Positions 14,570 to 50,685 of a stretch of 59,412 nt of DNA are shown in pieces; positions within the stretch are counted from its first letter, which is position 1; each line of letters begins with the position of its first letter. The position numbers and the translations under genes were made by a program. The DNA is from Candidatus Firestonebacteria bacterium RIFOXYD2_FULL_39_29 (GTDB lineage Bacteria > Oederibacteriota > D2-FULL-39-29): contig MFGV01000036.1 of the NCBI GenBank assembly GCA_001778375.1, positions 1 through 59,412 of the forward strand, in the 5' to 3' direction. The notes under the pieces were generated by a model. It had not been told where the DNA came from, searched no databases, and worked only from the letters and a program-made list of their open reading frames with translations.

Positions 14570-14721
14570 GTATCTTCGTAGCAAATTGACTTAATACATT
14601 TGTTTTACTTGCTTCTTTAATTGTCTGAAAATTTAATTAATAGCAGGTGATTTAATTCATTGGATTTGATAAAATAATCAGCCATAGCTTGTAGGCAAAT
14701 ATCTTTTTGGAGGATGAATGT

Positions 14722-16506
14722 ATGTTTAAAAAAATGATTTTAATATTTGCAGTTATCTTATCGTGCATTTTCATCCAGGCCGCGGAAAAGCTCATTCTGG
14801 TAAATTCGACAACTTTTGACGGATTGACTCCGGCAAGGCAGTATATAGAGGTAAATGGTGTCTGGATTAAACATATCTACCCTCCTTCGGTTTTGATTGT
14901 AGATGATAAAAACAGTGAAAAAATAAAAAACATTCACGGAATAACCGGGATTTATACGGATAAAATTGAAAGTCAGGTAATAAGTGCATTAACCGGCTCG
15001 GCAAATATTGGCGCAATTGCCTGGAATCAAAACCGGGATTCTCTTAAAAAAGCACCTGCGGCACCAGAAGTTCTTCCTTCCTATTTCTTTGACGGGAGTG
15101 ATTGTCTTATTTCGCCTGACTACAATGCGGCAAAATATAAAAGTCCGGGTTTTTTTGGTAAGGTGCTTCCTGAGCCTGCTACTTATATGACTACCGGTTA
15201 TCTTCTTGGGAGTACTGCAATAGGTATTATCTTTCCTCAATGTAACGGGACTAGTGAACCAATCGTGCATACCTGGACCTTGGGTGAAATTGCTACTTAT
15301 ACAAGCACTTATCAAACTGAGATGAATAAATTTATTGCCTCGGAGCCAAAAGCGCATATTACTTTTATCTATGAGATTAAAACAATCCCTGTAGACTTTG
15401 AGCCGGCTAACTATGGGAGCACTACTATAAGCGTTGAAACAGCGGGTATTGCCAAATGGATGCCTCAAGTGCTAACGGCTCTTGGTGTTTCCGGTCAAAG
15501 AGCGTATTGCAATACTTTGCAGAAGAATTATAAAACGGATTGGGCCTATATGGATTTTGAGGTAGAAGCTACAAATGGAAGATCGTTTGCATACTTTGGC
15601 GGGCCTTATACCGTTAACTTTAACCATGCTGCTGGAGCCCATGAAGCGGTTCATATCTATTATGGTCAGGATGAGTATTCGGGAAACGGGAACTCGGATG
15701 CTGCTACAACCAGCGGGTATTATTCCACACCGAACACTAATTATTTAGGTGCTGTTGAACCAAACTGTATAATGAAAACAGGCACAGGTACAACTTTTTG
15801 TACCTACACAAGAGCTCAGCTGGGTTGGGTTGATTTGAATGCAAATGCTGTTATGGATTTGCTTGAAGTACCGCCTTCCGGAACTGTATCTTTAGGAGGT
15901 AAAATATTAACGGGAGTAGCTAAAGCGGGAACCCCTCCCGGTGTTTCTTCTGATTTTGGACCTTGTTGGGGTCCGATATCAGGCTTTACCATAAAAGATA
16001 TATCTTCCGTCATGTATCGTGTGGATGGCGGAGATTGGGTACCGGCTTCTGCCTCAGACGGGAAATTTGACAGTGCGTACGAACCATATTCCTTCTATCC
16101 TACTGCGGAGCATGAAGGTACTACTCATACTCTTGATATAAAATTTACGGAGGCCGCAGGTCTAAGCACTACTATATCAACCACCGTCGGGGTTCTTGAT
16201 ATTCTGGCTCCGGTAAGCAAAGCGGTTTGTTATCCGATTCCGTTTAATCCGAGAGAAGAGGGCGCAAAGTTAAATATTGCCACCGGGGCTGTAAATCAAT
16301 CCTTTACAGTTGCCATATATAGTATGTCAGGAGAGAAAATAAGGACACTTTCTGAAGCGGGAACAGAAATTTATGCGGATACCGGTTTTGCTTCCTGGAA
16401 CGGAAAAAATACGGCAGGAGAGGAAGTTGCGAGCGGTATATATTATGTTGTCGCTACGTCAGGTACTAAGACTGCCAAAGGTAAACTATTGGTGAAGAAA
16501 AAATGA
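14722..16506 (+). CDS. Secreted HEAVH zinc metalloprotease with FlgD-like C-terminal domain
   Basis: A 594-residue protein starting at 14722 (GGAGG nine bases upstream; an in-frame start at 14707 is less likely). Signal peptide FKKMILIFAVILSCIFIQA. HEAVH at about 307-311, in a GAHEAVHIYYGQDEY context, fits an HExxH zinc site. Residues beyond about 500 form a FlgD-Ig-like domain: AVCYPIPFNPREEG, then VAIYSMSGEKIRTL, WNGKNTAGEEVASGIYYVVA, and a final KGKLLVKKK. Such domains serve as anchoring or sorting modules in proteins exported across the outer membrane. The stop overlaps the next start (ATGA), a PorV/PorQ gene. Family of the catalytic part not identified. Confidence 0.7.
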   Translation: MFKKMILIFAVILSCIFIQAAEKLILVNSTTFDGLTPARQYIEVNGVWIKHIYPPSVLIVDDKNSEKIKNIHGITGIYTDKIESQVISALTGSANIGAIAWNQNRDSLKKAPAAPEVLPSYFFDGSDCLISPDYNAAKYKSPGFFGKVLPEPATYMTTGYLLGSTAIGIIFPQCNGTSEPIVHTWTLGEIATYTSTYQTEMNKFIASEPKAHITFIYEIKTIPVDFEPANYGSTTISVETAGIAKWMPQVLTALGVSGQRAYCNTLQKNYKTDWAYMDFEVEATNGRSFAYFGGPYTVNFNHAAGAHEAVHIYYGQDEYSGNGNSDAATTSGYYSTPNTNYLGAVEPNCIMKTGTGTTFCTYTRAQLGWVDLNANAVMDLLEVPPSGTVSLGGKILTGVAKAGTPPGVSSDFGPCWGPISGFTIKDISSVMYRVDGGDWVPASASDGKFDSAYEPYSFYPTAEHEGTTHTLDIKFTEAAGLSTTISTTVGVLDILAPVSKAVCYPIPFNPREEGAKLNIATGAVNQSFTVAIYSMSGEKIRTLSEAGTEIYADTGFASWNGKNTAGEEVASGIYYVVATSGTKTAKGKLLVKKK

Positions 16507-17498
16507 GAAAACATAAATTTAAAGCACTGATAATTCTTGCTTTTGCCGCGCTCGTTCATGCCGGCGCCGGAAGCACAGGAAATGAAATTTTAAAAATCAA
16601 TGTTGGTGCTAAGCCTATCGGAATGGGCGGTGCATTTACCGGACTTGCAAACAATGTTGATGCGATATACTATAATCCCGCGGGGCTTGTTCAAATAGAA
16701 GAAATGGAGCTTTCCCTTATGCATTCGGAATATATTGTAGATACCCGTTGTGAGTATGCAGCAGTGGCTTTGCCTGTTAAAAATATGACTTTTGGTGTTA
16801 ATACGGTTTTTGTTTGGAATAGTTTTGAAAAGCTGGATGATTCAGGAACCTTACTTGGAACTATTCTTGTTTACAACTCTGCTACAACTTTTTCCTGGGC
16901 TATTGTTCCATTACCTAAGGCAATGCCCGAGCTTTCACTCGGATTAAATGCAAAATATACTTACATGTCTCTTGACGATTTTTTTCAAAGCGCGGTATTT
17001 TTTGATCTTGGATTGCTGTATCTTATTGATAAAGATCTGAGTATCGGTTTTATTGCAAAGAATTTCGGGGCGACATTAAACGAGACGAGTGATCCGGCTC
17101 CTATTACTGTGAGAGCGGGAGTCGCGTATCTGCTTTCTGTGAATGAACCTGAAAAAAAGAAGATAAAAAGTGTCGGGAATACCTCAATGAGCTCCGGAGT
17201 TAAAAAATTCAATAAAAGACAGGAAAAAGGCAGGAATGACGGAAGATTCCGGGGAAAAGATTTAATGCTTACGTTAGATGTGGAAAGGCCCCGCGGCGGT
17301 ATTTTTTCGGAAGCGTTTGGCGCGGATTATCTGTTTATGGAGGATTTAAATATTCGTGCAGGTATTTCTCTTAAAGGCACGGAAGCAAATATCTCTGCAG
17401 GAGTCGGTTTTGTCTATGAAAACTTAAAAATTGATTATTCTGTTATCCTGTCAACTTTTGGACTGCTGCATTACCCGTCTTTGACCATAAACTTTTAG
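16503..17498 (+). CDS. PorV/PorQ-family outer-membrane beta-barrel
   Basis: A 331-residue protein with a signal peptide (KALIILAFAALVHAGAG). It then shows the family hallmark KINVGAKPIGMGGAFTGLANN-x-DAIYYNPAGL, alternating strands, and a C-terminal aromatic barrel end (SLTINF). PorV/PorQ (UPF0164-like) proteins are outer-membrane barrels; in type IX secretion PorV carries cargo to the surface attachment complex. A charged insert, KKKIKSVGNTSMSSGVKKFN, lies before the last strands. Translational coupling to the upstream protease suggests that protease is its cargo. No core T9SS genes are visible here, so the export route is inferred. Confidence 0.8.
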   Translation: MRKHKFKALIILAFAALVHAGAGSTGNEILKINVGAKPIGMGGAFTGLANNVDAIYYNPAGLVQIEEMELSLMHSEYIVDTRCEYAAVALPVKNMTFGVNTVFVWNSFEKLDDSGTLLGTILVYNSATTFSWAIVPLPKAMPELSLGLNAKYTYMSLDDFFQSAVFFDLGLLYLIDKDLSIGFIAKNFGATLNETSDPAPITVRAGVAYLLSVNEPEKKKIKSVGNTSMSSGVKKFNKRQEKGRNDGRFRGKDLMLTLDVERPRGGIFSEAFGADYLFMEDLNIRAGISLKGTEANISAGVGFVYENLKIDYSVILSTFGLLHYPSLTINF

Positions 17499-31406: not shown

Positions 31407-33749
31407 TTATTCCGTCAGCTTCTTCAACGACTGCGCGTGGGTGAAAAATTCCTTTGGTGTCATGGATTTTAAGAAGACCATACCTCTGGTTGCGCGTGTT
31501 CTGGCGACCGGGTGCGATAAAAAGAAGTCCCTGCCAAGACAGGTCTTTATTACCGAATACTGCTCCACCATTATTTTCTGCGCCAAGTCTGAGAAAGGTC
31601 CGTCGTATTCGTAGCTCGGGAAGGATGCGGATCTTTGCGAACCGAAACAATCGATAAAGGCGGTACGCATGATTGCGAGAGAATTCATTGAAACCGGTAC
31701 GAAAATGTCGGCTTCCGAGGGGTGGAACCTGAACCAGACATTCCTGTAACCCCAGACTGTTACTTTTCTTGTTTTATCCTCGTTAAGATATATCTTTAGG
31801 GCTTCCGCTATTGTCTGTAGTATCTTGTAATGTGTATCCGGTCCGCTGGCTTCCGGGTCAAAGGCAACGGTAACTATCGTGGGTTTGGTTTTTCTAAGGA
31901 GTTCAAGCGTCGGCTGAACATCACGTTCGACTTCGGGGTTCTGTGTGAAAATATCCCCGGTATAAAAACCGAGACGGAGATGGAAGATATGGTCACAACT
32001 GAACCCGAGATGACCCCAGGTAAGTTCTTCTTCCCACTCACGCACCGTCCCTTTTAGTTTCTGGACGAGCGGACTGTCTTTTTTCCCGGGATAGCTTGTT
32101 GAAAAATAGTCGTTTAGCTTCTTAATTTCTTTAAGTATCTCCACGGGAGTTGTTTTTTCTGTGAGTTCCATCAGATTCCGGAGTAAACGCCTTGTTTCAC
32201 CTTCTACCTGCATCTCTTTCTTGTTGGCCGCGACACCGTCCAGATACTGATAAATATCCCTGTTACGGCTTGCCTGGTTGTCTTTTGCAAAATAGCCTTT
32301 CGAAAGAAGTTCTCCAAACTCTTTATTTATAAGCTTTTTCTCCAGATTATTCATGATGGAGAGGATATAGGAGCTGGTAACAGAAGTAAAACCGCTTGTT
32401 AGAGTCGCAAAATAATGTTCGTTCTTCGGATTTCTGACCAAGTGAAGGATGTAAGGGAGATAGCCGAGCATTATATCGTCATGATGAGGCGCGGTATGCA
32501 GTATCACCTGATCGGAGAGGTTTTCCGAACCCTTTAGCATCTTTTCTTTAATATCGCAGGCAATTTTGGCAGCGGTGTCTAAAATATCCCTGTCATGTTT
32601 TAAAAGATGATTCCCGAGTTTGTCAGCCGCGAGATCCTCCGTTTCCAGTTCGATAAGCCGTTTCTTATTCTTATAAGCTACATCTATTAAGATCTTTTCT
32701 TTTGCTTCAAGGGGTATATTATTCCCGTAAGCTTTTAGATTTTCAAGCCGTCTTTCTGTGAGCCGTGCTGCTGCGCCGTGGGTAATGTAAAATGCCGCGC
32801 CTTTTAGATTTTGGAGGGCGGTTGCCGGATAAAGGACCGAAGGGGTATTTTCCACTGCATCTTTTACGACCTTTGCTTTGGATTCACCTGCCGCAATGAT
32901 AATTGCAGTTGCGGTTGGGTTTGTGGTAATAGTCTTAAGTCCGATGGTTATAACTACTTTCTGGCGTGATATTTCAATGCCGCCCAGATCAGTTGCCGCG
33001 GCCGCCGCTGTTTCATAATTAATAGGAATAAGCCTGGTCGTAGAGAAGTGGTCCGAACCTCTGATGTTAAACCCTATATGCCCGTCCGGACCTATACCTC
33101 CGAGAAAGAAACCGATACCTCCGGCCTTGGATATTTTTTCTTCGTATTCCATAGAGAACTGATCAGCCGCGGTAATGGCATTATACTGTAACCTGTCCGC
33201 TTCGGTTACCGGCTGTCTGAATCGGAGGGAGAGGTCAACTTTGTTATTTCCAAAGACCGAGCCGAGATTTTTACCCTCAGGTGCGCCGTTAACCCAGGTG
33301 TCAATTAGAATGGCTTTTTTTGCATCGAGGCCGAATTCTTTAAAATAAAATTTGTGTATGTAATAAGCAAAACTATTTTCCTGAGAGGGATTTAGCGGGT
33401 AAAATTCGTCTATTTGTACGAAAGTAAAAGAGGAAATATCCGGTTTTTTGGATGTATCTATGCCCCAGCTTTCGAGATCTTTTTTAACTTCGGCTTTACT
33501 CCAGTTGGAGAGGTAATGATTGGTCCATTTGATGAAATGCTCCGGAGTCTTGCCGGTAGGAAGTGACACAACACCTTCCGGATTTTTGATCATCCACTCT
33601 ACAAAACGAAGAGCTGTAAGCTTGCCCAGAGAGGGAAAGTCGGAAACTTCTATTACTTTAAGCTTTTCTGTCGGAGTGTAAATAGCTTTCTTTTTTGTTT
33701 TTTGGATGGCAGTTGCTTCTACTTTTGAACTATTATCATAATTTCGCAT
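31407..33749 (-). CDS. Glucosamine-6-phosphate deaminase fused to PIG-L/LmbE domain
   Basis: A 780-residue two-domain protein. Residues about 30-330 are NagB-like: SLPTGKTPEHF (phosphate loop), VQIDEFYPL (D114, base), GGIGPDGHIGFN (D222, H224). This enzyme converts glucosamine-6-phosphate to fructose-6-phosphate and ammonia. Residues about 415 onward carry HTAPHHDDIMLGYLP, the PIG-L/LmbE deacetylase zinc motif (PHHDD 421-425). Fused NagB-PIG-L proteins occur in Bacteroidetes and other groups and may combine N-deacetylation with deamination of amino sugars. All catalytic residues seem present in both parts. An 11-bp inverted repeat lies upstream (33787-33845). Confidence 0.85.
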   Translation of the reverse strand: MRNYDNSSKVEATAIQKTKKKAIYTPTEKLKVIEVSDFPSLGKLTALRFVEWMIKNPEGVVSLPTGKTPEHFIKWTNHYLSNWSKAEVKKDLESWGIDTSKKPDISSFTFVQIDEFYPLNPSQENSFAYYIHKFYFKEFGLDAKKAILIDTWVNGAPEGKNLGSVFGNNKVDLSLRFRQPVTEADRLQYNAITAADQFSMEYEEKISKAGGIGFFLGGIGPDGHIGFNIRGSDHFSTTRLIPINYETAAAAATDLGGIEISRQKVVITIGLKTITTNPTATAIIIAAGESKAKVVKDAVENTPSVLYPATALQNLKGAAFYITHGAAARLTERRLENLKAYGNNIPLEAKEKILIDVAYKNKKRLIELETEDLAADKLGNHLLKHDRDILDTAAKIACDIKEKMLKGSENLSDQVILHTAPHHDDIMLGYLPYILHLVRNPKNEHYFATLTSGFTSVTSSYILSIMNNLEKKLINKEFGELLSKGYFAKDNQASRNRDIYQYLDGVAANKKEMQVEGETRRLLRNLMELTEKTTPVEILKEIKKLNDYFSTSYPGKKDSPLVQKLKGTVREWEEELTWGHLGFSCDHIFHLRLGFYTGDIFTQNPEVERDVQPTLELLRKTKPTIVTVAFDPEASGPDTHYKILQTIAEALKIYLNEDKTRKVTVWGYRNVWFRFHPSEADIFVPVSMNSLAIMRTAFIDCFGSQRSASFPSYEYDGPFSDLAQKIMVEQYSVIKTCLGRDFFLSHPVARTRATRGMVFLKSMTPKEFFTHAQSLKKLTE

Positions 33750-38982: not shown

Positions 38983-39243
38983 TATTATATAATGAAAACA
39001 TCCCTTCTTTGAGCCAAAGGTAAGATAAGGATTCTCTCTCTCCTTGAGAGTATTAAGTTAAAAGAGATATCCGACTGTAATCTATATAACATTGACATAT
39101 TTGGTATTTTAGGGTAAAATAATTAAAATTGCTTATTTTTCAATGTAAACTGTTAAACAGTAAGAGGTTAACAGTATTATGTTACCGGGCTTAAGTGCCT
39201 TAATTTTATTAAAATGATAGGGAAATGCTAAAGGAAAGGAGCA
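38983..39243. other. Divergent intergenic region
   Basis: It contains the promoter of the giant gene (39092-39120), an AACAGTAAGAGGTTAACAGT direct repeat of AACAGT words near 39155-39175, and an AAAGGAAAGGAG ribosome site. No gene seen. Confidence 0.4.
39092..39120 (+). promoter_or_regulatory. Predicted sigma70-type promoter of the surface cassette
   Basis: TTGACA (39092-39097), 17-base spacer, TAAAAT (39115-39120). It would transcribe the 2072-residue protein gene and the genes overlapping it downstream. Confidence 0.65.
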
Positions 39244-42200
39244 ATGCATCAGTGTAATAAAACCTGTTATTTTGCATTTGCACTATTTCCTATTGCTTTA
39301 TTTCATGCCTTGAAGAAAATCAAACTCACAAAAATATTATTATTAATATTTATATTATTTGCTTCTACCTTTCAGGCTGCTGATTACGTTTGGGATGGCG
39401 GCGGCGGTAATTCGGATTGGTCTACTGGCACTAATTGGGCTCCGGATGCCGGGGCAGGTGGTCCCGGAAGCGGTGATAACGCGTTAATCGACACGGGTGC
39501 GACGAATGTTACAATAACAGGCGCGGCTTCAGTACTTTCTCTTGTAATTACTAACGGGGCAACACTTAAACTGGACACCACTTTGAATGCTTCCTCCGGT
39601 ATTGCGATTGGAAATACCTCGGTATTAATTTGCGGGGCAGCAACTGTATCAACGGGAAATCTTACCAATACCGGATCTTTAACTTCCTCAAGTGCCGTAA
39701 TAAATTGCAGTAATTTCATTAGTTCTAATACGTTTACCGCCTCAGGGGCTACGGTTATCAGTTCTTCAGGTAACGTAGATATAAGCGGAACCTTCACTCA
39801 TAATAGCTCTACGACACTATATATGAGCGGAACGAAAAGTTTGTCTTCCACTGTGCCCTTGTATAATCTGACGATTGTTTCCGGTGTTATTGCTTTTAAC
39901 AACTCGATAACGCTGGTCGGAGCTCTAACTGTTGACAGCGGCGCAGTACTGGAAGTAGGCACTAATAATCTTTTCACTGCGGGAAATATTTCCAGCAATG
40001 GGGGAACGCTTACCAATGTGTCCGGGAATCTCTCCTGTGCGGACTTTTCCTCTACAGGTGCGTTTAGTTCTTCCGGCACAACAGCCATAAGTACGACGGG
40101 TGATGTAGCAATAAGCGGAACTTTCACCCATAGTAATTTTGCCTCGTTTTACATGAGCGGAACGAAAAATTTAAGTTCGACCGTGCCTTTGTATAACCTT
40201 AATGTAATCTCTGGTGCGGTAACCCTGACAACTTCCCTGTCTCTGTCCGGGAACCTTTCAGTTACTGTTGCTCAAACGCTGAACCTTGCTGCCAACGATC
40301 TCTCGATTGCGGGAAATATTAATAATTCCGGCGTTCTAAATACTTCTACCGGTAAAATACGCTGCGTGGATTTTACTTCCTCGGGTGCCTTTGCCGCTAC
40401 GGGTACGACAACAATCAGTACTTTTGGCGATGTAATGATCAGCGGAACCTTTATGCACAACAGTTCGACTACACTTGCCATGACCGGAACAAAACTTTTG
40501 AGTGTTGTTCCTGCTCTTTACGACCTGCAAATCGTTTCCGGAGCTATAACTCTTCTCGGGGATATTTCTCTTGCGAATAATCTTACGGTGAACAGCGGGG
40601 CGACTTATAATTTAAATATTTATAAGCTTCTTGTTTCCGGGAATATTACTAACAGCGGTATACTAAATACGTCTACGGGTGATATTTCCTGCGGGGATTT
40701 TATTTCTTCGGGAACCTTTATAGCGGCAGGAACGGCAGTAATAAGTACTTCCGGAGATGTTGCTGTTACCGGGGTATTTACTCATAACAGCACGACTACT
40801 CTGGCCCTGACCGGGACCAAGACACTGACAACTTCGGTGCCGCTTGGAAATGTAAGCATAAACTCAGGTGCTATCAGTCTTTTGTCAAATGTGAATATTG
40901 CAAATAATTTCGGGCTATACAATGCTGCCGTCTTCCATGCTACGGCAAAAACGATAACCATCCAGGGGAATGTCAGTATTCCAAGCGGGGCTTTTGATTT
41001 TAGAGGCAGCGCTCTAAATATCCTTGGTAGCTGGGATTCCGGTACAAGTCCTTTGACTGCATCTCAAAGCGTGTTGTCTTTTACGGGCTCCACTAACCAG
41101 ACGGTTAATATGTCGGGCAATATACTTGAAGAGATTATTGTTAATAACATCGGTACACCGGGAAAAGTTGTCTTTTCTTCAGCGGCAGGGATCCGTGTAA
41201 GCGGGAATCTGACCGTAAGCGACGGCGTAATGGATCTTTCCGTGAATGACCCGTTTATTTATTTTTCCGGAGTGTTTAATGTGGGAGCGCAAGGGAATAT
41301 ATTAAAAGGCGCTTCAGGCGCAGGCGGAAAAATTATTTACGAAGGCGCTTCGACCAAAGAAATTATTTCAAACAGTCAGGATCTGGGCGATGTTACCGTA
41401 AGTTCCGGGACGGTTTCTATCACTAAAAATTTAAAGACGGATAATCTTACCGTAAGTTCCGGGGCAGTTTTGCAAATCAACGCAGGTTCAAATTCCGTAA
41501 TTTTTACCATAAATAACGGCAAGACGCTTTTAAACAGCGGAACTATTCAGGTGCTGAGTGATGTAAACGAGTTGAGATTTGAGTCGGATGGTTTGGCAAA
41601 CATTGACGGTGCAGGAGGCTTCATCTCCGGTTCAGGTAAAATATTTTATTTGAAAAATATCAGTATGGTTCCGGCACTTACCCTGAATACAAATGATACT
41701 GTGATTCTGGGTGGAAGCTGTACTTTTAACGGATTGATGCTTAATAACCAGGCGGTCTTTACGCAGGGGACGAATTTCACACTGACTCTTAAAGGGGATT
41801 TTCTTGTGGATTCAGGAGCCACATTCAATAAGGATGCGGGGACAGGAAAGATATATTTTAATAACGTCGGAAATCAGACAGTCCGGATAGGAAATAAAGA
41901 TCTTGGCAATATTGAAATAGGTTCAAGTTCAACCGTCAAATTTGAAGAACAAGCTACGGTTAATAATGTTTCGATTCTTTCCGGAGGGCTTTTCCAGTTA
42001 AACGGTACTTCTTTGACCACGACTTTAAATGTGGAGAACGGAGGAGTTATTACAAATGACGGGTACTTTCAGGTCTTTAACTCTACAAAACCCGTAACCC
42101 TGCAATCGCCCGGGAGTTGTACTTTCAGCGGGACGGCGTTAAATTTATTGAACCAGTCGATTTACTTAAGCAATGTTGTTTTTACTACGGGTACAACTCT

Positions 42201-45200
42201 TTCAACCAATGAAAAGATCTACCTCGCGGGAAATTGCACGTTTACAAATCTTTCAACTTCGGCGGCGAGCGCGCATATTTACCAGGGTGCAAACAATAAT
42301 CTTACTTTGAACGGCAACCTTACCATTCTTACGGCAACTTTTAATCCGGATACCGGCAGCGGTCAGGTAATCTTTAACGGCGGCACCACCCAGGTAGTAA
42401 ATGCCAACAGTAATAATATCGGGAAAATAGTCGTTACCGGAACAACAAATCTAAGTATCTCCAATAACATCCAGTTAAACGGAATTACTATTGATAACGG
42501 GTCCTCTTTGGTTTGTGGTAAAGCGGATAATGCTGTAACAATAACCGCAGGCGGACTGATTACCGTAAACGGCTTGCTACAGTTTACCGGCCCGCAATTA
42601 GGTGATGAAATAGTATTGGCTTCAAGCTCTTTGGGTAATCCTTATTCGTTAAATAAAACCGTACTTGGAACTGTTACATTTTCCAGGGTGAAGATAGGGG
42701 ATTGCACAGCGACAGGAAATACGGTTGATGCTTCCAATAACTGTATAAATACCGGGGGGAATACTAATGTTACTTTCCTTTCTGTAACCTGGGTAGGCGG
42801 CGGGTTGAATAAAAATTACAGCAATTCCGCGAATTGGGACCTTAACTTTGTTCCTTTATTTGATGACAATGTGATATTTGACGGCGTAAATAATTGCATC
42901 ATAGATGTTCCTTCTGCCCTGGGCAGACTTACTATGGCCGCTACTTACACAGGAACTGTTACTGTCAATACCGCTACTGTTACGATTAACTCGGATATGA
43001 ACTTTCTGGGCGGAACAATTGTTGATAACGGGAATATAATCTATTGCAAAGGAAATTGGAATAAAAGCGGAGGGACTTATACTGCTACAGGCACCGTGAT
43101 AATGACTGCTTCTACGGGTACGGTATATATAACGTCAGGTGGAGCGCCTTTCAGTAACCTCACAGTAACCGGGAATGCTCTCTTTTATCCGCAGGATGCG
43201 CTTACGGTAAATGGTAACCTTACCGTCTCGGCCAATGCTACGCTAAGGCCGCAAAATACTTTGACGGTAAATAATAATGCGGCGATAACGACAAATGGTC
43301 TTCTTGATTTTAACGGAAAGGGAAATGCTTTAAAAGGGAATTTTCAGAATAATGGCGGCAGTTTTACGACGGGCAGTACGGGTTTAACATTTTCTGCGGC
43401 AACCGGGACAAAAAATATAAGTACTGGAGGAAATAACTGTACGATCAACTCCTTGGTCTTTGATGACGGTGGAGGTAACGCGGTTTTTGTATTGCAGGAT
43501 TCTATTAATGTTCAAAATGACCTGACAATAAACGGCGGGACGGTGCAAGCAGGAAGTAATAATATAACGATAAAGGGGAATTTTGCGAATAGCGATATTT
43601 TCAGTGCGGGTACCGGATCTGTAATTTTCAATAAAGGCGGTTCGCAGAGAATTACAGGCGGGACTTCGGTTTATAATAATCTGATAATATCAGGAGCGGG
43701 TACAGTTCTGGATACAATTACTAATCTTAATCTTGCAAACTTAAATATAGGAGGCAATGCATCATTTTCGTGCGTAACAAGCGGTGTAAACATTACTGTT
43801 GTTCCTTCTGGAGTTATCACTGTAAATGCTTCGGGGACGTTGGACATAAGAGGAGCAGTGTCGAATATCTCGCTGTCCGGTGTCGGCGGAGCCGATTTTT
43901 ATCTTAACAACTCGGGGAGTGTGATATTTTCAAAGGTAAGCATAAAGGACTGTGATGCCTCCGGCGGATCTGCGCTGGACGCAACAACAAGTTGTGCTAA
44001 TTTGGGGAATAATACTAATATTAATTTTAGTTCTCCAAAATGGAACGGAACAATTGATAATAATTATTTCAATCCGTTAAATTGGAATACGGGGTCCGTT
44101 CCATTAAGTACGGATTATATTTCTTTTGAAACCGGCTCTGCAAATTGCAGTATTAGTAGTGATGTCTCTGTAAATAATTTTTCAATGACGGGTGTATATT
44201 CAGGCATAATTTCACTTGCTGCGGGTAAAACTTTTACCGTTAACGGGACCGCCTCTTTAACTGCGGGTAACTTTAATTGCGGGAGCGGAATATTAAAAGT
44301 AAAAGGCGGTTTTTCCGCTTCTGCCGGTGTTTTTACGGCAGGAACAGGTACACTGGAGTTTGCAGCTTCCGGAAATCTTACAACTAACGGAAATGTTTTA
44401 AATAAGCTTCTTATCAGCGGTTCAGGAACAATCGTAAGCTTGAAAGATAATCTTACAAACAGCGGGATAACTGTAGGAAGCAGCACGGAGTTTAAATGTC
44501 TTGAAAATAATATTTCTATCACAACTACTGCAGGTGAAAGTATCCTTATTGCTGGGGTATTTACTCTGATTGCTGATGCAACAAGGGAGATAAAGCTCAG
44601 ATCCGGTACGACAGGTTCAACCTTCTACCTGACTGTTAGCGGAACTGCTTCTGTTACGGGAGTAGATTTTAAAGATTGTGACGCTAGAGGCGGTACAAAA
44701 ATTAACGCAGCGAATGATTGCGTTGACAGCGGCAATAACTTTAACGTTTCTTACTTTTACGGAACCGTAGTTCTTGCAAGCGCCGGCGCGGAAGTTGAAT
44801 ATCCGGCGGATGTCCTCACAAAAATATCCATACCTGCCCTGGCGCTGGAAAAAGACAGTAAGGTGAGTATTGATCCCGTAAATTTGCCGTCGAATCGGGG
44901 TATTGGTTTTGAAATGAAAGCCAGCGGTTTTGTTGACGGAAAAGCAATTTCCAGATTGAGTGCGCAGGCGACGATAACTATACATTACCCGGCTGTTTTT
45001 ACCGGTGTAACTGCCGGAACTTATATAGAGGATCAGGATGTCGCTATCTTTTATTATAACGGTGTGGAATGGGTGAAACTCGGAGGCGTGCTTAATACGG
45101 CGGCAAAAACAATAGCTATAAAAACCGAGCAACTGGGAATGTATAAAGCCAAAGCTTCGGTACGTGCAACGGCTTTTGCGCTGAATCAGGTGGTGCCAAA

Positions 45201-45462
45201 AAAGATCTTTACCCCTAATAACGACGGGGTAAACGACCAGATACGGTTCTACATCGAAAATCCGAAGGATAATGAAGTCGTTGCAAAAGTGTATGAATAT
45301 TCCGGTGAGGAAGCAGCTGATCTGCAATTGGATCCTACCGGAACGTACTATTATTGGGATGGAAAGAACAGAAGCGGGAATACTGCGGGTGTAGGAATAT
45401 ATCTTTATCAGTTTAAAGTTGACGGTAACGTTATCAGCGGAACGGTGGTGCTTGCAAAATGA
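39244..45462 (+). CDS. Giant secreted beta-repeat surface protein with gliding-type C-terminal domain
   Basis: A 2072-residue protein. The signal peptide lies near 25-45 (KLTKILLLIFILFASTFQAAD). The N-terminal third has four to five imperfect repeats of about 85 residues built on SSGTFxxxGTxxISxxGDVxxxGxFTHNS and LxMTGTKxLS, Ser/Thr/Gly/Asn-rich and beta-helix-like. Three W-x(n)-N-W...P...D modules (DWSTGTNW near the start, NSANWD, NPLNWN) head larger blocks, each ending with a KDCDA...NC...NN-x-N motif. The C-terminus has KKIFTPNNDGVNDQIRFYI and WDGKNRSGNTAGVGIYLYQF, a CHU_C/FlgD-like sorting or anchor domain. It is probably an adhesin exported to the cell surface. Overlaps the PorV/LysM gene by 4 bp. 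Confidence 0.75.
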   Translation: MHQCNKTCYFAFALFPIALFHALKKIKLTKILLLIFILFASTFQAADYVWDGGGGNSDWSTGTNWAPDAGAGGPGSGDNALIDTGATNVTITGAASVLSLVITNGATLKLDTTLNASSGIAIGNTSVLICGAATVSTGNLTNTGSLTSSSAVINCSNFISSNTFTASGATVISSSGNVDISGTFTHNSSTTLYMSGTKSLSSTVPLYNLTIVSGVIAFNNSITLVGALTVDSGAVLEVGTNNLFTAGNISSNGGTLTNVSGNLSCADFSSTGAFSSSGTTAISTTGDVAISGTFTHSNFASFYMSGTKNLSSTVPLYNLNVISGAVTLTTSLSLSGNLSVTVAQTLNLAANDLSIAGNINNSGVLNTSTGKIRCVDFTSSGAFAATGTTTISTFGDVMISGTFMHNSSTTLAMTGTKLLSVVPALYDLQIVSGAITLLGDISLANNLTVNSGATYNLNIYKLLVSGNITNSGILNTSTGDISCGDFISSGTFIAAGTAVISTSGDVAVTGVFTHNSTTTLALTGTKTLTTSVPLGNVSINSGAISLLSNVNIANNFGLYNAAVFHATAKTITIQGNVSIPSGAFDFRGSALNILGSWDSGTSPLTASQSVLSFTGSTNQTVNMSGNILEEIIVNNIGTPGKVVFSSAAGIRVSGNLTVSDGVMDLSVNDPFIYFSGVFNVGAQGNILKGASGAGGKIIYEGASTKEIISNSQDLGDVTVSSGTVSITKNLKTDNLTVSSGAVLQINAGSNSVIFTINNGKTLLNSGTIQVLSDVNELRFESDGLANIDGAGGFISGSGKIFYLKNISMVPALTLNTNDTVILGGSCTFNGLMLNNQAVFTQGTNFTLTLKGDFLVDSGATFNKDAGTGKIYFNNVGNQTVRIGNKDLGNIEIGSSSTVKFEEQATVNNVSILSGGLFQLNGTSLTTTLNVENGGVITNDGYFQVFNSTKPVTLQSPGSCTFSGTALNLLNQSIYLSNVVFTTGTTLSTNEKIYLAGNCTFTNLSTSAASAHIYQGANNNLTLNGNLTILTATFNPDTGSGQVIFNGGTTQVVNANSNNIGKIVVTGTTNLSISNNIQLNGITIDNGSSLVCGKADNAVTITAGGLITVNGLLQFTGPQLGDEIVLASSSLGNPYSLNKTVLGTVTFSRVKIGDCTATGNTVDASNNCINTGGNTNVTFLSVTWVGGGLNKNYSNSANWDLNFVPLFDDNVIFDGVNNCIIDVPSALGRLTMAATYTGTVTVNTATVTINSDMNFLGGTIVDNGNIIYCKGNWNKSGGTYTATGTVIMTASTGTVYITSGGAPFSNLTVTGNALFYPQDALTVNGNLTVSANATLRPQNTLTVNNNAAITTNGLLDFNGKGNALKGNFQNNGGSFTTGSTGLTFSAATGTKNISTGGNNCTINSLVFDDGGGNAVFVLQDSINVQNDLTINGGTVQAGSNNITIKGNFANSDIFSAGTGSVIFNKGGSQRITGGTSVYNNLIISGAGTVLDTITNLNLANLNIGGNASFSCVTSGVNITVVPSGVITVNASGTLDIRGAVSNISLSGVGGADFYLNNSGSVIFSKVSIKDCDASGGSALDATTSCANLGNNTNINFSSPKWNGTIDNNYFNPLNWNTGSVPLSTDYISFETGSANCSISSDVSVNNFSMTGVYSGIISLAAGKTFTVNGTASLTAGNFNCGSGILKVKGGFSASAGVFTAGTGTLEFAASGNLTTNGNVLNKLLISGSGTIVSLKDNLTNSGITVGSSTEFKCLENNISITTTAGESILIAGVFTLIADATREIKLRSGTTGSTFYLTVSGTASVTGVDFKDCDARGGTKINAANDCVDSGNNFNVSYFYGTVVLASAGAEVEYPADVLTKISIPALALEKDSKVSIDPVNLPSNRGIGFEMKASGFVDGKAISRLSAQATITIHYPAVFTGVTAGTYIEDQDVAIFYYNGVEWVKLGGVLNTAAKTIAIKTEQLGMYKAKASVRATAFALNQVVPKKIFTPNNDGVNDQIRFYIENPKDNEVVAKVYEYSGEEAADLQLDPTGTYYYWDGKNRSGNTAGVGIYLYQFKVDGNVISGTVVLAK

Positions 45463-46709
45463 GATTAATGAAAATACTACATAGGCTACTATGTCTATGC
45501 ACAGTTTTATTTATGCATAGCAATGCATTCGGCGCTTTCAGCGACGATGGTGCTTTGGCAAGAAGCATGGGTGCTGCCGATGCTGTTATTTGCCAGTCAG
45601 AAACTGCTTTGAATGTTTTTTATAATCCGGCAGGTCTTGCCCCTATGAAAAACATAGAAGTAACTCTGGGTTACGGCAAAAGATTCATGGGTCTTACGGA
45701 CGGGAGTGATATAGGAAATTCTTCCCTTGCAGTTGCCGTAGGAGCCGATAAATTGGGCGGGTTTGGTATTGCGTGGCAGAATGCAGGGCTTGCCGGCAGT
45801 TATCAGGAAAATCTTCTTATCTTTTCTTGCGGTCAGCAATTTATTGAAAATTTCTATCTGGGTGCCAGTTTAAAATACTATTCAACTGAATATCTGTCCG
45901 ATGCTTATACCGTTATAGATCCACTTTTTACTTCTAATGGTTATACGAAAAAGAGTTTTGGCGGTGATGTCGGAGCTTTGGCTGTAATTGCGACTCTTCC
46001 GCTTAAGATAGGACTCACCATCTCCAATATTCTACAGCCGGATTTTGGGCTTGGAATACCGGATAAACCGCCGCTGGGCATTAAAATGGGTTTAGCTTAT
46101 TCCGTGGATGATATGAACTTTGAGCTTGATGGTAAACTGGAAAACTCGAAAGGGACCATCAGCATTGGCGGAGAAGGCTGGCTTTTACAAAAGCGCCTTG
46201 TTATCAGGAGCGGTTTTCAGATCTATGACCGCGGACTAAAACAAATAACTCTAGGAATCGGCTACAGGGAAAACCAGTTTGATTTTAATTATTCTTTCAG
46301 CTATCCCCTGTCCGGTTTTTCAGGTACGGCAGGGACACATCAAACCAGTATTTCATTCAGGTTTGAAAACCCGTTAAAATCTAAAATCGTTTCTCAACTT
46401 TCAGAAAATGGGACGAAGGTTCTGATTCCTGTCCCTGAAGTAAAAACTTCAGCTCAAACGGAAAATATCAGTACACTGGTAATTACGTCTTCTTCAAACA
46501 GTGCGGAAGAAAACCGGAAGCTCCTGCATGAAAAAGAGGAGAGCTATACTGTTCAAACAGGAGATACTTTAAAGAGTCTGGCGATAAAGTTTTATAATGA
46601 CCCAAAGCTCTGGACCTTGATCTATGAAGCAAATAAGGACAATATTAAAGTTGGTACTTTGGTACCCGGAACTGTTCTTTTAATACCGAAACAAAAACAA
46701 ATTCAGTAA
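45459..46709 (+). CDS. PorV/PorQ-family barrel with C-terminal LysM domain
   Basis: A 416-residue protein. A signal peptide (ILHRLLCLCTVLFMHSNAFG) is followed by the PorV/PorQ start ARSMGAADAVICQSETALNVFYNPAGLAPM and a beta-rich barrel body to about 310. A linker of about 40 residues leads to ESYTVQTGDTLKSLAIKFYN through GTVLLIPK, a LysM peptidoglycan-binding module. A barrel of this family linked to a LysM would tie an outer-membrane exporter to the cell wall. Coupled by ATGA overlap to the giant adhesin, its likely cargo. The kinase-like gene starts 13 bp downstream. Confidence 0.8.
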   Translation: MRLMKILHRLLCLCTVLFMHSNAFGAFSDDGALARSMGAADAVICQSETALNVFYNPAGLAPMKNIEVTLGYGKRFMGLTDGSDIGNSSLAVAVGADKLGGFGIAWQNAGLAGSYQENLLIFSCGQQFIENFYLGASLKYYSTEYLSDAYTVIDPLFTSNGYTKKSFGGDVGALAVIATLPLKIGLTISNILQPDFGLGIPDKPPLGIKMGLAYSVDDMNFELDGKLENSKGTISIGGEGWLLQKRLVIRSGFQIYDRGLKQITLGIGYRENQFDFNYSFSYPLSGFSGTAGTHQTSISFRFENPLKSKIVSQLSENGTKVLIPVPEVKTSAQTENISTLVITSSSNSAEENRKLLHEKEESYTVQTGDTLKSLAIKFYNDPKLWTLIYEANKDNIKVGTLVPGTVLLIPKQKQIQ

Positions 46710-46722
46710 AAGGAATATTGCA

Positions 46723-48159
46723 TTGACTGATGAAATAATTAACGACATATTAGATAAAATGGCAGCTTTCCGTGAGCAATTACGGAATAATACCTTTAAC
46801 AGGGAGATTCTTGCTGATTTGGATCTTTTGACCCAGTATATAAAGGATGATATCGGCGGTAGATTGAAACTGGAGCGGGATAGTTGTGACAGTCAAATAA
46901 AAAATGAATTAGAAGGGCAAAGAACCCGGATAATTCATCTTGAAACAGCCTGTTCTGAACTTGAAAAACGTTTGGCAGAAAAGGAATTGAGCCTTAGAGA
47001 ATCTGAAAATAGAGCGGCCAGGAATGAACGGGAATGGGAAAATATTGATAAAGAAAGGAGAAAAGACCTTGTGGCTTTAAGTGAAGAGCTGAAACAGATG
47101 GAAGAAAATATTATCAGGGTGAAGAAAGAAAACGAAAATAATAAAAGATTAAAAAATGAAAGTGAAGCTTGTGTGTTGAACATGAAAGAAGAATATGAAA
47201 AGAAGCTTGTCTTGGCCAAAGAAGAGTGCAAGGATGTAACGCAGGAAAAAGAAATTCTGGAAAGTAAATTAACAGAAAAAGAAGAGGAAACAAAAGGGCT
47301 TAATCAAAATATTGCTGAGCTGAGAAACAGGCTGGGGATGATCTTGCAGGAGACCGGAGAACGGGAAAAGAAAATGCTTTCCGGCTTTGCAGAACGGGAA
47401 AAGGAGATTTCTGCAGTCTGGAACAGGAATATGGCAGCTTTGGAGAAAAAGTATCAGGAGCTTATAGAGGAGAATGCTGCAGGAATATCTCTTCGTTTGA
47501 GAAGCTGCGTTAACTCAGTTAGCGGTGTTATTCAGTTGATTTCCGATAAACTGCTGCTTATAAAGAATAGAAAACAGAAACCGGAGGACGAGGAGAATGT
47601 TAGAAAAGACCTTGCCTCAACACTTCTTGAGGTAGATACTATTGCGAAAGCCGTTAAATCTTATCTGGAACTTTCAAGAGTTCCGGTTATGAATATTGCG
47701 GAGATAAATATTTATGAAAGCATAAAGAAAGTTCTGAATTATTATACCGAGCAAATAGAAAAACAGAATATTAAAGTTGTATATAATCATGATGAATTGG
47801 TCCAGAATTGCATCGGGGACAGAGAAACAATGCAAGCAATATTAAATGATATTCTGCAAAATGCTGTTGAAGCCATGACAAACGGGGGAGTTCTGACTAT
47901 TTCTGCGGATAGTGCGGTAATCGGGCCGGGTAAATACCTTAAAGTATCAATAAGCGATACGGGTATCGGAATTGACCCCCGGATAAATGATAAAATATTT
48001 CTTCCATTTTTTACTACAAAAGAGAATGGAGAAGGTATGGGTTTGTCGAGAGTTAAGCGTAATATGATTTTGAACAGAGGCAGCATAATAATTGAAAGCA
48101 AAAAGGATTTGGGGACTGTCGTTCACCTGACTTTCTATAAAGGAAAATTGGATGCTTAA
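46723..48159 (+). CDS. Coiled-coil histidine-kinase-like protein without phosphoacceptor His
   Basis: A 478-residue cytoplasmic protein with a TTG start and AAAGGAA ribosome site. Residues about 45-250 form a long charged coiled coil. The DHp-like helix SLRLRSCVNSVSGVIQLI (256-273) aligns with the H-box, but Leu257 and Arg258 stand where His-Glu should be. The ATPase part is intact: LNDILQNAVEAM (N box), SDTGIGI (G1), FLPFFTT (F), GEGMGLS (G2). It may bind ATP without autophosphorylating at this site. No membrane or sensor domain is visible. It overlaps the receiver-like gene by 8 bp. Confidence 0.75.
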   Translation: MTDEIINDILDKMAAFREQLRNNTFNREILADLDLLTQYIKDDIGGRLKLERDSCDSQIKNELEGQRTRIIHLETACSELEKRLAEKELSLRESENRAARNEREWENIDKERRKDLVALSEELKQMEENIIRVKKENENNKRLKNESEACVLNMKEEYEKKLVLAKEECKDVTQEKEILESKLTEKEEETKGLNQNIAELRNRLGMILQETGEREKKMLSGFAEREKEISAVWNRNMAALEKKYQELIEENAAGISLRLRSCVNSVSGVIQLISDKLLLIKNRKQKPEDEENVRKDLASTLLEVDTIAKAVKSYLELSRVPVMNIAEINIYESIKKVLNYYTEQIEKQNIKVVYNHDELVQNCIGDRETMQAILNDILQNAVEAMTNGGVLTISADSAVIGPGKYLKVSISDTGIGIDPRINDKIFLPFFTTKENGEGMGLSRVKRNMILNRGSIIIESKKDLGTVVHLTFYKGKLDA

Positions 48160-49483
48160 TATTCTGATAATTAGCGATGAAACAGCCGTAAGAAGCAACT
48201 TCTCGAAAGTTTTAAAACCGAGAGGTTTTAATGTTGCTGAAGCCGGAAGCGGGCAGGAGGGGATCCGTTTAGTAGAGAAACAGGAGTTTGATCTGGTTTT
48301 TGTTTCTTCCCGTCTCCATGATGTTGACGGAATAAGGATTCTGGATCTTGTAAATAAAAAGAAAAGGGATTTACCTGTTGTTCTTTGCTGCGGTCTGGAT
48401 GAACTTTCGATTGCGATTCAAGCTGTCAAATCCGGAGCTTACGATTTTATTGAAGAACCTTTTAAAAATTCCGATATCTTGAGAATTAGCCGGGAGATAC
48501 TGATTAAGAGCGGGAAAAGTGGTTTGAATGCTTCTATGGATATTGAGGAAAGCCAATATGTCTCGGATGTTGCCAGAAAAAAACTTAAATATTTGGGTAT
48601 TGGAATAGCTGTCTTTCTTCTGGTTTTAGTCAGTGTTTTGGAGATTAACAATTTATATAACAGAAAAGCGAAAAATAAGTTATCAGTTGAAAATTCTGAC
48701 AGTGTTGTCAAAATTGAGCGGATCGAAAGAAAAACGGAAGCAATAAAAACTGAAAATTCAATAAAACCTGATATTGCGGTAGAAAAAAAGAAGGAAAAGG
48801 TTGTTATCGATCTTCCTGTCATATCAGCAAAAGAAAAAATATATCCGGTATCTTATTTCCACCCTTCAGGAATATACAGATCCGGGGAATATCTTTGGGT
48901 GTGTGATTGGTTTTCCCAAAGTATCTATAAGCATAAGTTAGACGAGAAGCTGACGCTTCTTAAAACCTTTAGCACGGGTGATCTTCATCCTTCAGGTCTT
49001 GCAATAATTAATGAGTATTTGTGGGTCACTGATTCCTGGGATAGGACTGTTACTAAATTCAGAATAGATAATGAATTGGTTCTGGTTAAAACATATAAAG
49101 TTCAGGAACAGTCCCCTTCCGGATTAATGTTTGACGGAACCAGTATTTGGCTTTGTGACGCTACTTCAAAGAAGATAAGCAAGCACTGGATGGATAATGA
49201 ACTGACCATGTCTTACAGTCTTCAAAGTCCCGGGGAAAGTCCTGTTACGCTTTACTGGGACGGGACTAATATTATTTCCGGAGACCGTGATTCCGGCATT
49301 ATTTACTTTCATAAGAGCATTTATAATTTACTTGAAGTTGAGAAATTTCAAAACGAAACCCTTAAAAGCAAAAAAGGAAAATTTTCCGGTTTTACTTCGG
49401 ACCGGGACTATTTCTGGATGGTGTTTGATGGTATAGGAAGTATTTATAGATTAAGTAAAGATAATGTTAAAAAGTCACGTTAG
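48152..49483 (+). CDS. Degenerate receiver domain, membrane helix and propeller-like sensor
   Basis: A 443-residue protein. Residues 1-120 are a response-regulator receiver fold (LNILIISDE, FDLVFVSSRLHDVDG, AVKSGAYDFI), but the phosphoacceptor Asp is Ser52, the conserved Lys before Pro is Glu102 (EEPF), and the acidic pair is Ser8-Asp9. One membrane helix follows (YLGIGIAVFLLVLVSVLEI, 147-165). After a charged linker, residues 230-440 repeat a W-containing unit (PSG...GEYLWVCDW, PSG...NEYLWVTDSW, PSG...GTSIWLCDA) like YncE/NHL propellers, probably outside the inner membrane. Coupled to the His-less kinase upstream. Confidence 0.75.
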   Translation: MLNILIISDETAVRSNFSKVLKPRGFNVAEAGSGQEGIRLVEKQEFDLVFVSSRLHDVDGIRILDLVNKKKRDLPVVLCCGLDELSIAIQAVKSGAYDFIEEPFKNSDILRISREILIKSGKSGLNASMDIEESQYVSDVARKKLKYLGIGIAVFLLVLVSVLEINNLYNRKAKNKLSVENSDSVVKIERIERKTEAIKTENSIKPDIAVEKKKEKVVIDLPVISAKEKIYPVSYFHPSGIYRSGEYLWVCDWFSQSIYKHKLDEKLTLLKTFSTGDLHPSGLAIINEYLWVTDSWDRTVTKFRIDNELVLVKTYKVQEQSPSGLMFDGTSIWLCDATSKKISKHWMDNELTMSYSLQSPGESPVTLYWDGTNIISGDRDSGIIYFHKSIYNLLEVEKFQNETLKSKKGKFSGFTSDRDYFWMVFDGIGSIYRLSKDNVKKSR

Positions 49484-49595
49484 AAAATGTTTTGGATAAG
49501 CCGGTAAATGCTGGTAGGAATTGTAGCTGTTGTATCTGAACTTAGTGTTGGATATTTTTCATTTTTTAGCGGGGTAATGGGAGAAACAGAAAAAC

Positions 49596-50483
49596 ATGGC
49601 AGAACAGCAAAAAAGAAAGCATAAGAGGATATCTGTAATAATGACCAAACTTGTTTTGGAAGATGTTGAAGGCAGTACCAATATCAGGTTAATCGGAGAT
49701 ATTAATAATATCAGTCTCGGGGGGATTGCCTTAGAAACAAAAGGGCATTATGAGATTGGAATGATCTTTAAGATAAACTTTATTCTTCCAAACGGACAAG
49801 AATTCAAGAATCTTACGGGTAAGGTTATGTGGATCTCAAAAAGCTCTGATAAATATTATGTCGGAATAAGAGTTACAAGGTTTGGCCTGTTTGATAGAAT
49901 AAAGCTTGCTGGCTGCCTGCTTGAGATTATGAACAGCTATTTTGTACCTGAAAAAATGATGATTTTAAAAAAAATAGTTGAATTCTTTAAAAAGGCCCGT
50001 ACAGCCGGTGTTCTGGATTTAAGACAGCGATCTCTGATTACTGAAGCGGCGCTTAAAATTGATTTTGACAGAGTCTATAATTTATTCTTGCAGGTGGAAT
50101 CTGCCGGAGGGAGAACTATTAAAATAGGAGAATTTACGAAAATAGTTGCTTCTTTCTCTAAAGCTGTTGAAATTTTGCCCAGGGACTTTGACCCAAGTAT
50201 TATTAAGACTGAGTTGCTAAAATATAAAGAAGAGATAGAATTGTTTGAAAATATTCGTAATAATGAGGTAAAATATTTTTCTGCAATAGGTATACAGGGG
50301 TACGAGGAAGCTTTTTCTGTTCTCCTGGGTCTTTGTCATAATTTAGAGGGTGTTGTCGAAAAACACGAAAAAGATCAGGCAAAAGCTTCGAAAGAAGAGA
50401 ACAACAATAGATTATCTTTGATATATTTTGCAAACGTAATGTATTCAAGAATAGCGGATATTTATAATATTATGGAAAAATAG
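49596..50483 (+). CDS. PilZ-domain protein
   Basis: A 295-residue cytoplasmic protein. RKHKRISV near the N-terminus is the RxxxR c-di-GMP-binding motif, and NNISLGGIALETKG matches (D/N)xSxxG with Asn in place of Asp. The first 110 residues form the PilZ barrel (GKVMWISKSSDKYYVGIRV). The rest is helical and unassigned. A 112-bp gap with its own ribosome site separates it from the receiver-like gene. PilZ proteins commonly control adhesion or motility in response to c-di-GMP, which would suit the upstream adhesin gene. Confidence 0.8.
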   Translation: MAEQQKRKHKRISVIMTKLVLEDVEGSTNIRLIGDINNISLGGIALETKGHYEIGMIFKINFILPNGQEFKNLTGKVMWISKSSDKYYVGIRVTRFGLFDRIKLAGCLLEIMNSYFVPEKMMILKKIVEFFKKARTAGVLDLRQRSLITEAALKIDFDRVYNLFLQVESAGGRTIKIGEFTKIVASFSKAVEILPRDFDPSIIKTELLKYKEEIELFENIRNNEVKYFSAIGIQGYEEAFSVLLGLCHNLEGVVEKHEKDQAKASKEENNNRLSLIYFANVMYSRIADIYNIMEK

Positions 50484-50608: not shown

Positions 50609-50685
50609 GCGCCCGTGGCCTAATTGGATAAGGCACTAGCCTCCGAAGCTGGTGATTGGCAGTTCGACTCTGCCCGGGCGCACCA
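50609..50685 (+). tRNA. tRNA-Arg (anticodon CCG)
   Basis: A complete cloverleaf. The acceptor stem GCGCCCG pairs with CGGGCGC, the D arm is GCCT...AGGC, the anticodon stem CTAGC/GCTGG holds loop CTCCGAA (CCG at 50643-50645), and the T arm is GGCAG-TTCGACT-CTGCC. An encoded CCA ends at 50685. Upstream is a TATAATATAATAT run that may include the promoter. Confidence 0.96.

Follow-up and report, generated by a model that had tools for sequence, protein, structure and literature searches.

Organization of the locus

The window is a stretch of 59,412 nucleotides from Candidatus Firestonebacteria bacterium RIFOXYD2_FULL_39_29, whose genome comprises 3.0 Mb in 93 contigs. Between positions 39244 and 50483, ORF analysis of the window resolves five reading frames on the + strand, encoding in order a giant adhesin, an outer-membrane barrel, a histidine-kinase-like protein, a receiver-like protein and a PilZ-domain protein. 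A preliminary description of this DNA had placed five genes here in a single direction; all five frames are confirmed, at the stated coordinates and with the following spacing. The adhesin and barrel genes overlap by 4 bp (ATGA), a gap of 13 bp separates the barrel gene from the kinase-like gene, the kinase-like and receiver-like genes overlap by 8 bp, and 112 bp lie between the latter and the PilZ gene, which could form a separate transcript. Among relatives that carry the same genes, Candidatus Firestonebacteria bacterium RIFOXYA2_FULL_40_8 (MFGS01000027) is the nearest and is used below for comparison.

Upstream of the operon, a sigma-70-like promoter, TTGACA-17-TAAAAT (39092..39120, + strand), is assigned by consensus match only, agreeing at 11 of 12 positions. 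It is the top scorer among 35 promoter-like sites in the region, a total near the shuffle expectation of 28.7 (s.d. 5.4), so that only its score and position favour it. Within the adhesin leader, the near-palindrome AACTGTTAAACAGT (ACTGTTAAACAGT) at 39148..39161 is a possible operator. No second exact copy occurs within the window, and a partial repeat, GTTAACAGT, lies in the same leader. Elsewhere in the window, on the − strand (31407-33749), a protein of 780 residues matches profiles of the glucosamine-6-phosphate deaminase-like type, and Pfam assigns it no domain at E 0.001.

The adhesin and its barrel form a probable type IX-like pair

The adhesin gene (39244..45462, + strand) encodes the secreted repeat protein of 2072 residues that had been described, built of β-solenoid-like repeats and ending in a CHU_C/FlgD-Ig-like tail. 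As for the gliding-type C-terminal domain described there, the motif FTPNNDGVND is found in the tail, but the profile matches are weak, with CHU_C scoring 23.3 bits against a cut-off of 27 and TIGR04131 14.2 against 35. The adjoining gene (45459..46709, + strand) encodes a FadL-family outer-membrane barrel of 416 residues with a LysM domain at its C-terminus. The barrel exceeds the cut-offs of PorP_SprF (Pfam PF11751, 26.2 against a gathering cut-off of 22.3), LysM (28.8 bits against 20.9) and TraF_2, and falls below the curated cut-off of PorV_fam (NF033709, 54.8 against 90). The barrel and its LysM domain thus stand as first described, but a PorP/SprF-like identity fits better than the PorV/PorQ type named at that time. 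At 14707-17498 in the window, the gene of another secreted protein, whose C-terminus is FlgD/Por-tail-like, overlaps a PorV/PorQ-family gene, which scores 111 bits with PorV_fam, above the cut-off.

In Bacteroidota, PorP-like barrels bind type B cargo and hold it on the surface (PMC9143113), and dedicated shuttle genes are often linked to type B substrates (PMC12618676). As in SprB/SprF and PG1035/PorP, a large adhesin built of repeats and bearing a CHU_C-like tail is here encoded beside a FadL-family barrel gene above the PorP_SprF cut-off, and, as in the SprB/SprF systems of Bacteroidota type IX secretion, the genome encodes a SprA-like protein. Such a protein is present in 10 of 10 genomes examined, under the family cut-off in all but one; it appears as several collinear stretches in one frame of 1781 residues, the best scoring 83.9 bits against a cut-off of 200. 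A C25 peptidase of the PorU type is not found in the window genome or its eight nearest relatives, and a search for the GldM/PorM motor gives no match, its controls being equally silent. The locus further differs from both Bacteroidota pairs in the fusion of LysM to the barrel, the tail profile under cut-off, the signalling genes within the operon, and the phylum, Firestonebacteria. Adhesin and barrel thus look like a commonplace pair of type IX-like cargo and shuttle, comparable to SprB and SprF. The window genome contains 16 CHU_C-like tails, and nine more adhesin-barrel pairs are found in it and RIFOXYA2_FULL_40_8, all without signalling genes; this adjacency is common in these genomes, so on its own it is uninformative.

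The kinase-like and receiver-like proteins have lost their phosphorylation sites

The kinase-like gene (46723..48159, + strand) encodes a cytosolic coiled-coil pseudo-histidine kinase of 478 residues, with AtoS and ZraS as its nearest named profiles. It had been described as a kinase-like ATPase deprived of its phosphoacceptor His, and both features are borne out by a HATPase_c score of 62.2 bits, above the Pfam cut-off, and by alignment of the H-box, which reads GISLRLRSCV against GVAHEINNPM in intact kinases of related genomes. Leu257 occupies the position of the phosphoacceptor in the window genome and in RIFOXYA2_FULL_40_8 alike (70% identical), and in the alignment of both species the helical region contains no His at any position. 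The N and G boxes, which bind ATP, are complete in both.

The receiver-like gene (48152..49483, + strand) encodes 443 residues comprising a pseudo-receiver, a membrane helix and a β-propeller, the architecture first noticed. The receiver scores 72.9 bits with Response_reg, above the Pfam cut-off, and its nearest named profiles are NtrX, LuxO and AtoC. The phosphoacceptor Asp is replaced by Ser in the window protein and by Cys in that of RIFOXYA2_FULL_40_8; the alignment shows further replacements of the first acidic-pocket Asp by Ser, of Thr/Ser by Cys and of Lys by Glu. One strong membrane helix is predicted at residues ~144-168, followed by five repeats of ~42 residues that are modelled as a β-propeller (residues ~236-441) in a prediction with a mean pLDDT of 54. 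In a Foldseek search the propeller matches virginiamycin B lyase (E 2e-9), and its weak matches in four other genomes look like general propellers.

The closest profile relatives of the two proteins, together with the overlap of their genes, recall operons of the AtoS-AtoC and NtrB-NtrC type. Unlike in those operons, both phosphorylation sites are lost, and a membrane helix and propeller stand in place of the AAA+ and DNA-binding output. The simplest history would be an operon of AtoS/NtrC type that lost its phosphorylation sites and exchanged its DNA-binding output domain for helix and propeller. The retained ATPase domain and replaced phospho-His are shared with the pseudo-histidine kinases DivL, RocA and the ChrS variant. 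Among these, DivL is kinase-dead yet senses a response regulator, acting through receiver binding (PMC4211667). In contrast to all three, the protein described here is cytosolic, has a long coiled coil and is paired with a pseudo-receiver that lacks its Asp as well. A kinase-receiver pair losing both phosphorylation sites together would represent a natural reuse of two-component parts as a binding switch.

The PilZ protein carries a domain derived from glycyl-tRNA synthetase

The last gene (49596..50483, + strand) encodes 295 residues, with a PilZ domain at residues 1-~98 and a GlyS-type anticodon-binding domain at residues ~120-293, both placed by profile searches. The PilZ domain scores 42.3 bits, above the Pfam cut-off. 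Its c-di-GMP motifs, R7xxxR11 and N38xS40xxG43, are intact in both species, and the window genome has 13 GGDEF matches, in agreement with the link to c-di-GMP proposed for this gene.

The second domain had been missed. A Pfam profile search assigns nothing to the C-terminal half, which matches TIGR00211 at E 4.5e-7 and, directly, GlyS frames of ~700 residues in many relatives. Compared with the organism's own GlyS, it gives 7.9e-10 in phmmer. Profile-profile alignment to the GlyS domain in hhalign gives a probability of 97.6 across 169 columns that extend to the C-terminus. These matches make its homology to the anticodon-binding domain of the glycyl-tRNA synthetase β-subunit (GlyS) clear at the level of sequence profiles, on which the assignment rests because the two-sequence structure prediction is unusable (pLDDT 38). 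The homology to GlyS is collinear over ~170 residues to the C-terminus; unlike in GlyS, the domain stands apart from the synthetase, is fused to PilZ and has lost its anticodon-reading loop. E. coli GlyS recognizes C35 through a loop containing F652, V655, V657 and M658, and C36 through R585 (PMC9908026). The C35-reading loop and R585 are kept in the organism's own GlyS; in the PilZ protein the loop is replaced by VVEKHEKDQAK and Arg585 by Lys189.

This fusion is the most unusual part of the locus. A literature search found no report of PilZ joined to a glycyl-tRNA synthetase or anticodon-binding domain, plasmids yielded none, and when 84,980 species genomes were scanned with two insensitive 7-residue patterns from the PilZ alignment, only the known relative emerged. 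A PilZ domain with a synthetase-derived anticodon-binding domain is thus apparently unreported, and it is easy to assay.

Conservation of the unit in a second species

In RIFOXYA2_FULL_40_8 the order barrel-kinase-receiver-PilZ is kept, with the same 13 bp gap and 8 bp overlap and with 114 bp before the PilZ gene. Because order and near-equal spacing recur in a second species, the locus is not a chance arrangement. The phosphorylation sites are lost in both species. The one relative that has the kinase and receiver genes thus also lacks both His and Asp, and no homologues scattered away from barrel neighbours were found. The expected recurrence across several lineages did not materialize: among 45 genomes of the phylum, the signalling genes are present in two, representing two species of one genus, and are absent from a third genome of that genus (94% complete).

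Synteny ends after the PilZ gene. In the window, a tRNA-Arg (CCG) lies directly after it at 50609-50685, and RIFOXYA2_FULL_40_8 has no tRNA-Arg at this place. The adhesin of that genome lies on another contig (C17, L092), where it shares 89.6% identity across the final 788 codons and its stop is overlapped by a barrel gene 66% identical to the window barrel. The barrel copy preceding the kinase gene (L033) is 86% identical over its N-terminal half. As the two copies are distinct, they could represent barrels in tandem or belong to two loci.

Synonymous divergence between the two species is uneven, being low for adhesin and barrel (0.3-0.7), ~1 for the kinase, and saturated for receiver and PilZ; recombination or codon bias could underlie this. 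Protein identity remains at 66-76% at saturated or near-saturated synonymous sites, and this sequence comparison makes a protein-level constraint on the unit clear.

Proposed mechanism and alternatives

From the gene content and order, the lost and retained residues and the conservation in two species, we infer the interactions and the direction of signal flow in the following reading. Tentatively, at somewhat less than even confidence, the locus is taken as an SprB/SprF-like unit for adhesin display, in which a large cargo with a type B-like C-terminal domain has a dedicated FadL-family barrel, and to which a non-phosphorylating envelope sensor and a c-di-GMP effector would belong. The barrel would carry the adhesin and anchor it on the outer membrane, with the LysM domain tying the barrel to peptidoglycan. 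From the inner membrane, the receiver-like protein would extend its β-propeller into the periplasm, where the propeller would probably contact the barrel, its LysM part or passing cargo, and since the LysM domain sits on the barrel and the propeller reaches into the periplasm, the propeller could report the state of the barrel. A precedent is PorE of Bacteroidota, consisting of a propeller and a peptidoglycan-binding domain, which binds PorP (PMC9143113). Here too a propeller, predicted to be periplasmic, would lie next to a PorP-like barrel, and the assembly would include a module that binds peptidoglycan; unlike in the periplasmic lipoprotein PorE, the propeller sits on a pseudo-receiver of the inner membrane and the barrel itself bears the peptidoglycan module, LysM.

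Contact at the propeller would alter the cytosolic pseudo-receiver, which may dock on the pseudo-kinase encoded by the adjoining gene. With phospho-His and phospho-Asp gone, the pair would work through binding and ATP-dependent conformation instead of phosphotransfer, controlling another partner. By analogy, this would be a DivL-type switch, with c-di-GMP as a second input through PilZ. The PilZ protein may serve as the input or output arm for c-di-GMP, its GlyS-derived helical domain being a putative binding module. The earlier picture of the locus is plausible and, like the display-unit reading, draws on two species of one genus; this small degree of evolutionary replication counts against the display unit, as do the sub-threshold scores of the adhesin tail and the SprA matches, the search that found no PorU-type peptidase, the possibly separate PilZ transcript and the low pLDDT of the receiver-like model. 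As adhesin and anchor genes beside a phosphorylation-dead pair and a PilZ-GlyS fusion in two related uncultured Firestonebacteria, the locus is a candidate for a rare link between adhesion and signalling. An operon with a predicted built-in sensor offers concrete proteins for studying how cells sense the export or contact of a type IX-like adhesin.

It is possible, if doubtful, that the kinase-like and receiver-like proteins act instead on intact two-component proteins, as DivL or RocA do, the adhesin being only a co-expressed target. The pseudo-kinase would then bind a partner encoded elsewhere, either an active kinase or a response regulator in its phosphorylated state, with tuning by the adjoining pseudo-receiver. 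The DivL precedent (PMC4211667), the ATP-binding boxes and helical region retained without His, and the abundance of receivers (31 matches in the window genome) are consistent with this arrangement. The overlap of the two genes in both species, however, points to each other as first partners, and the arrangement names no external one.

The kinase, receiver and PilZ genes are unlikely to be mere passengers that share the operon but are functionally unconnected with the adhesin pair. Nine adhesin-barrel pairs do without such genes in these two genomes, and synonymous divergence rising from low values to saturation towards PilZ suggests that the histories of the genes may differ; yet the order and spacing from barrel to PilZ are kept despite the saturated synonymous sites at the 3′ end.

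The display unit also has a more specific form, decidedly unlikely as a whole: a phosphorylation-free unit leading from envelope to cytosol for one adhesin, in which the propeller would read the adhesin-barrel pair, the pseudo-receiver and pseudo-kinase would relay by conformation, and the PilZ-GlyS protein would give a c-di-GMP-dependent effect, possibly on RNA. It is quite improbable that the PilZ protein regulates by binding RNA, with c-di-GMP gating the hold of its GlyS-derived domain on tRNA or mRNA and adhesin output thereby tied to translation. The clear homology to an anticodon-binding domain favours such a role, as does DALRD3, which shows that a domain of this type outside a synthetase can serve as a tRNA adaptor (PMC7237682). 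The C35-reading loop and Arg585, however, are replaced in the PilZ protein, while the GlyS of the same organism retains the loop, and the adjoining tRNA-Arg is missing beside the second copy, for which reason this tRNA is rejected as a functional partner.

A two-component system decaying towards loss would explain why both partners lack active-site residues, but this very improbable reading is rejected on the evidence of purifying selection (protein identity kept against near-saturated synonymous sites, kinase dN/dS of 0.14, retained ATP boxes) and of open frames, full length in the window and interrupted in RIFOXYA2_FULL_40_8 only where N runs of the assembly coincide.

Two genera of the family contain another kind of PilZ gene, whose product has a Cys-rich N-terminus, immediately ahead of lepA and a PorV-like gene (L080 5026-6936; L081 3762-5544; L082 4845-6966), and matches suggest that the same PilZ-PorV pair is present in another family of the order.
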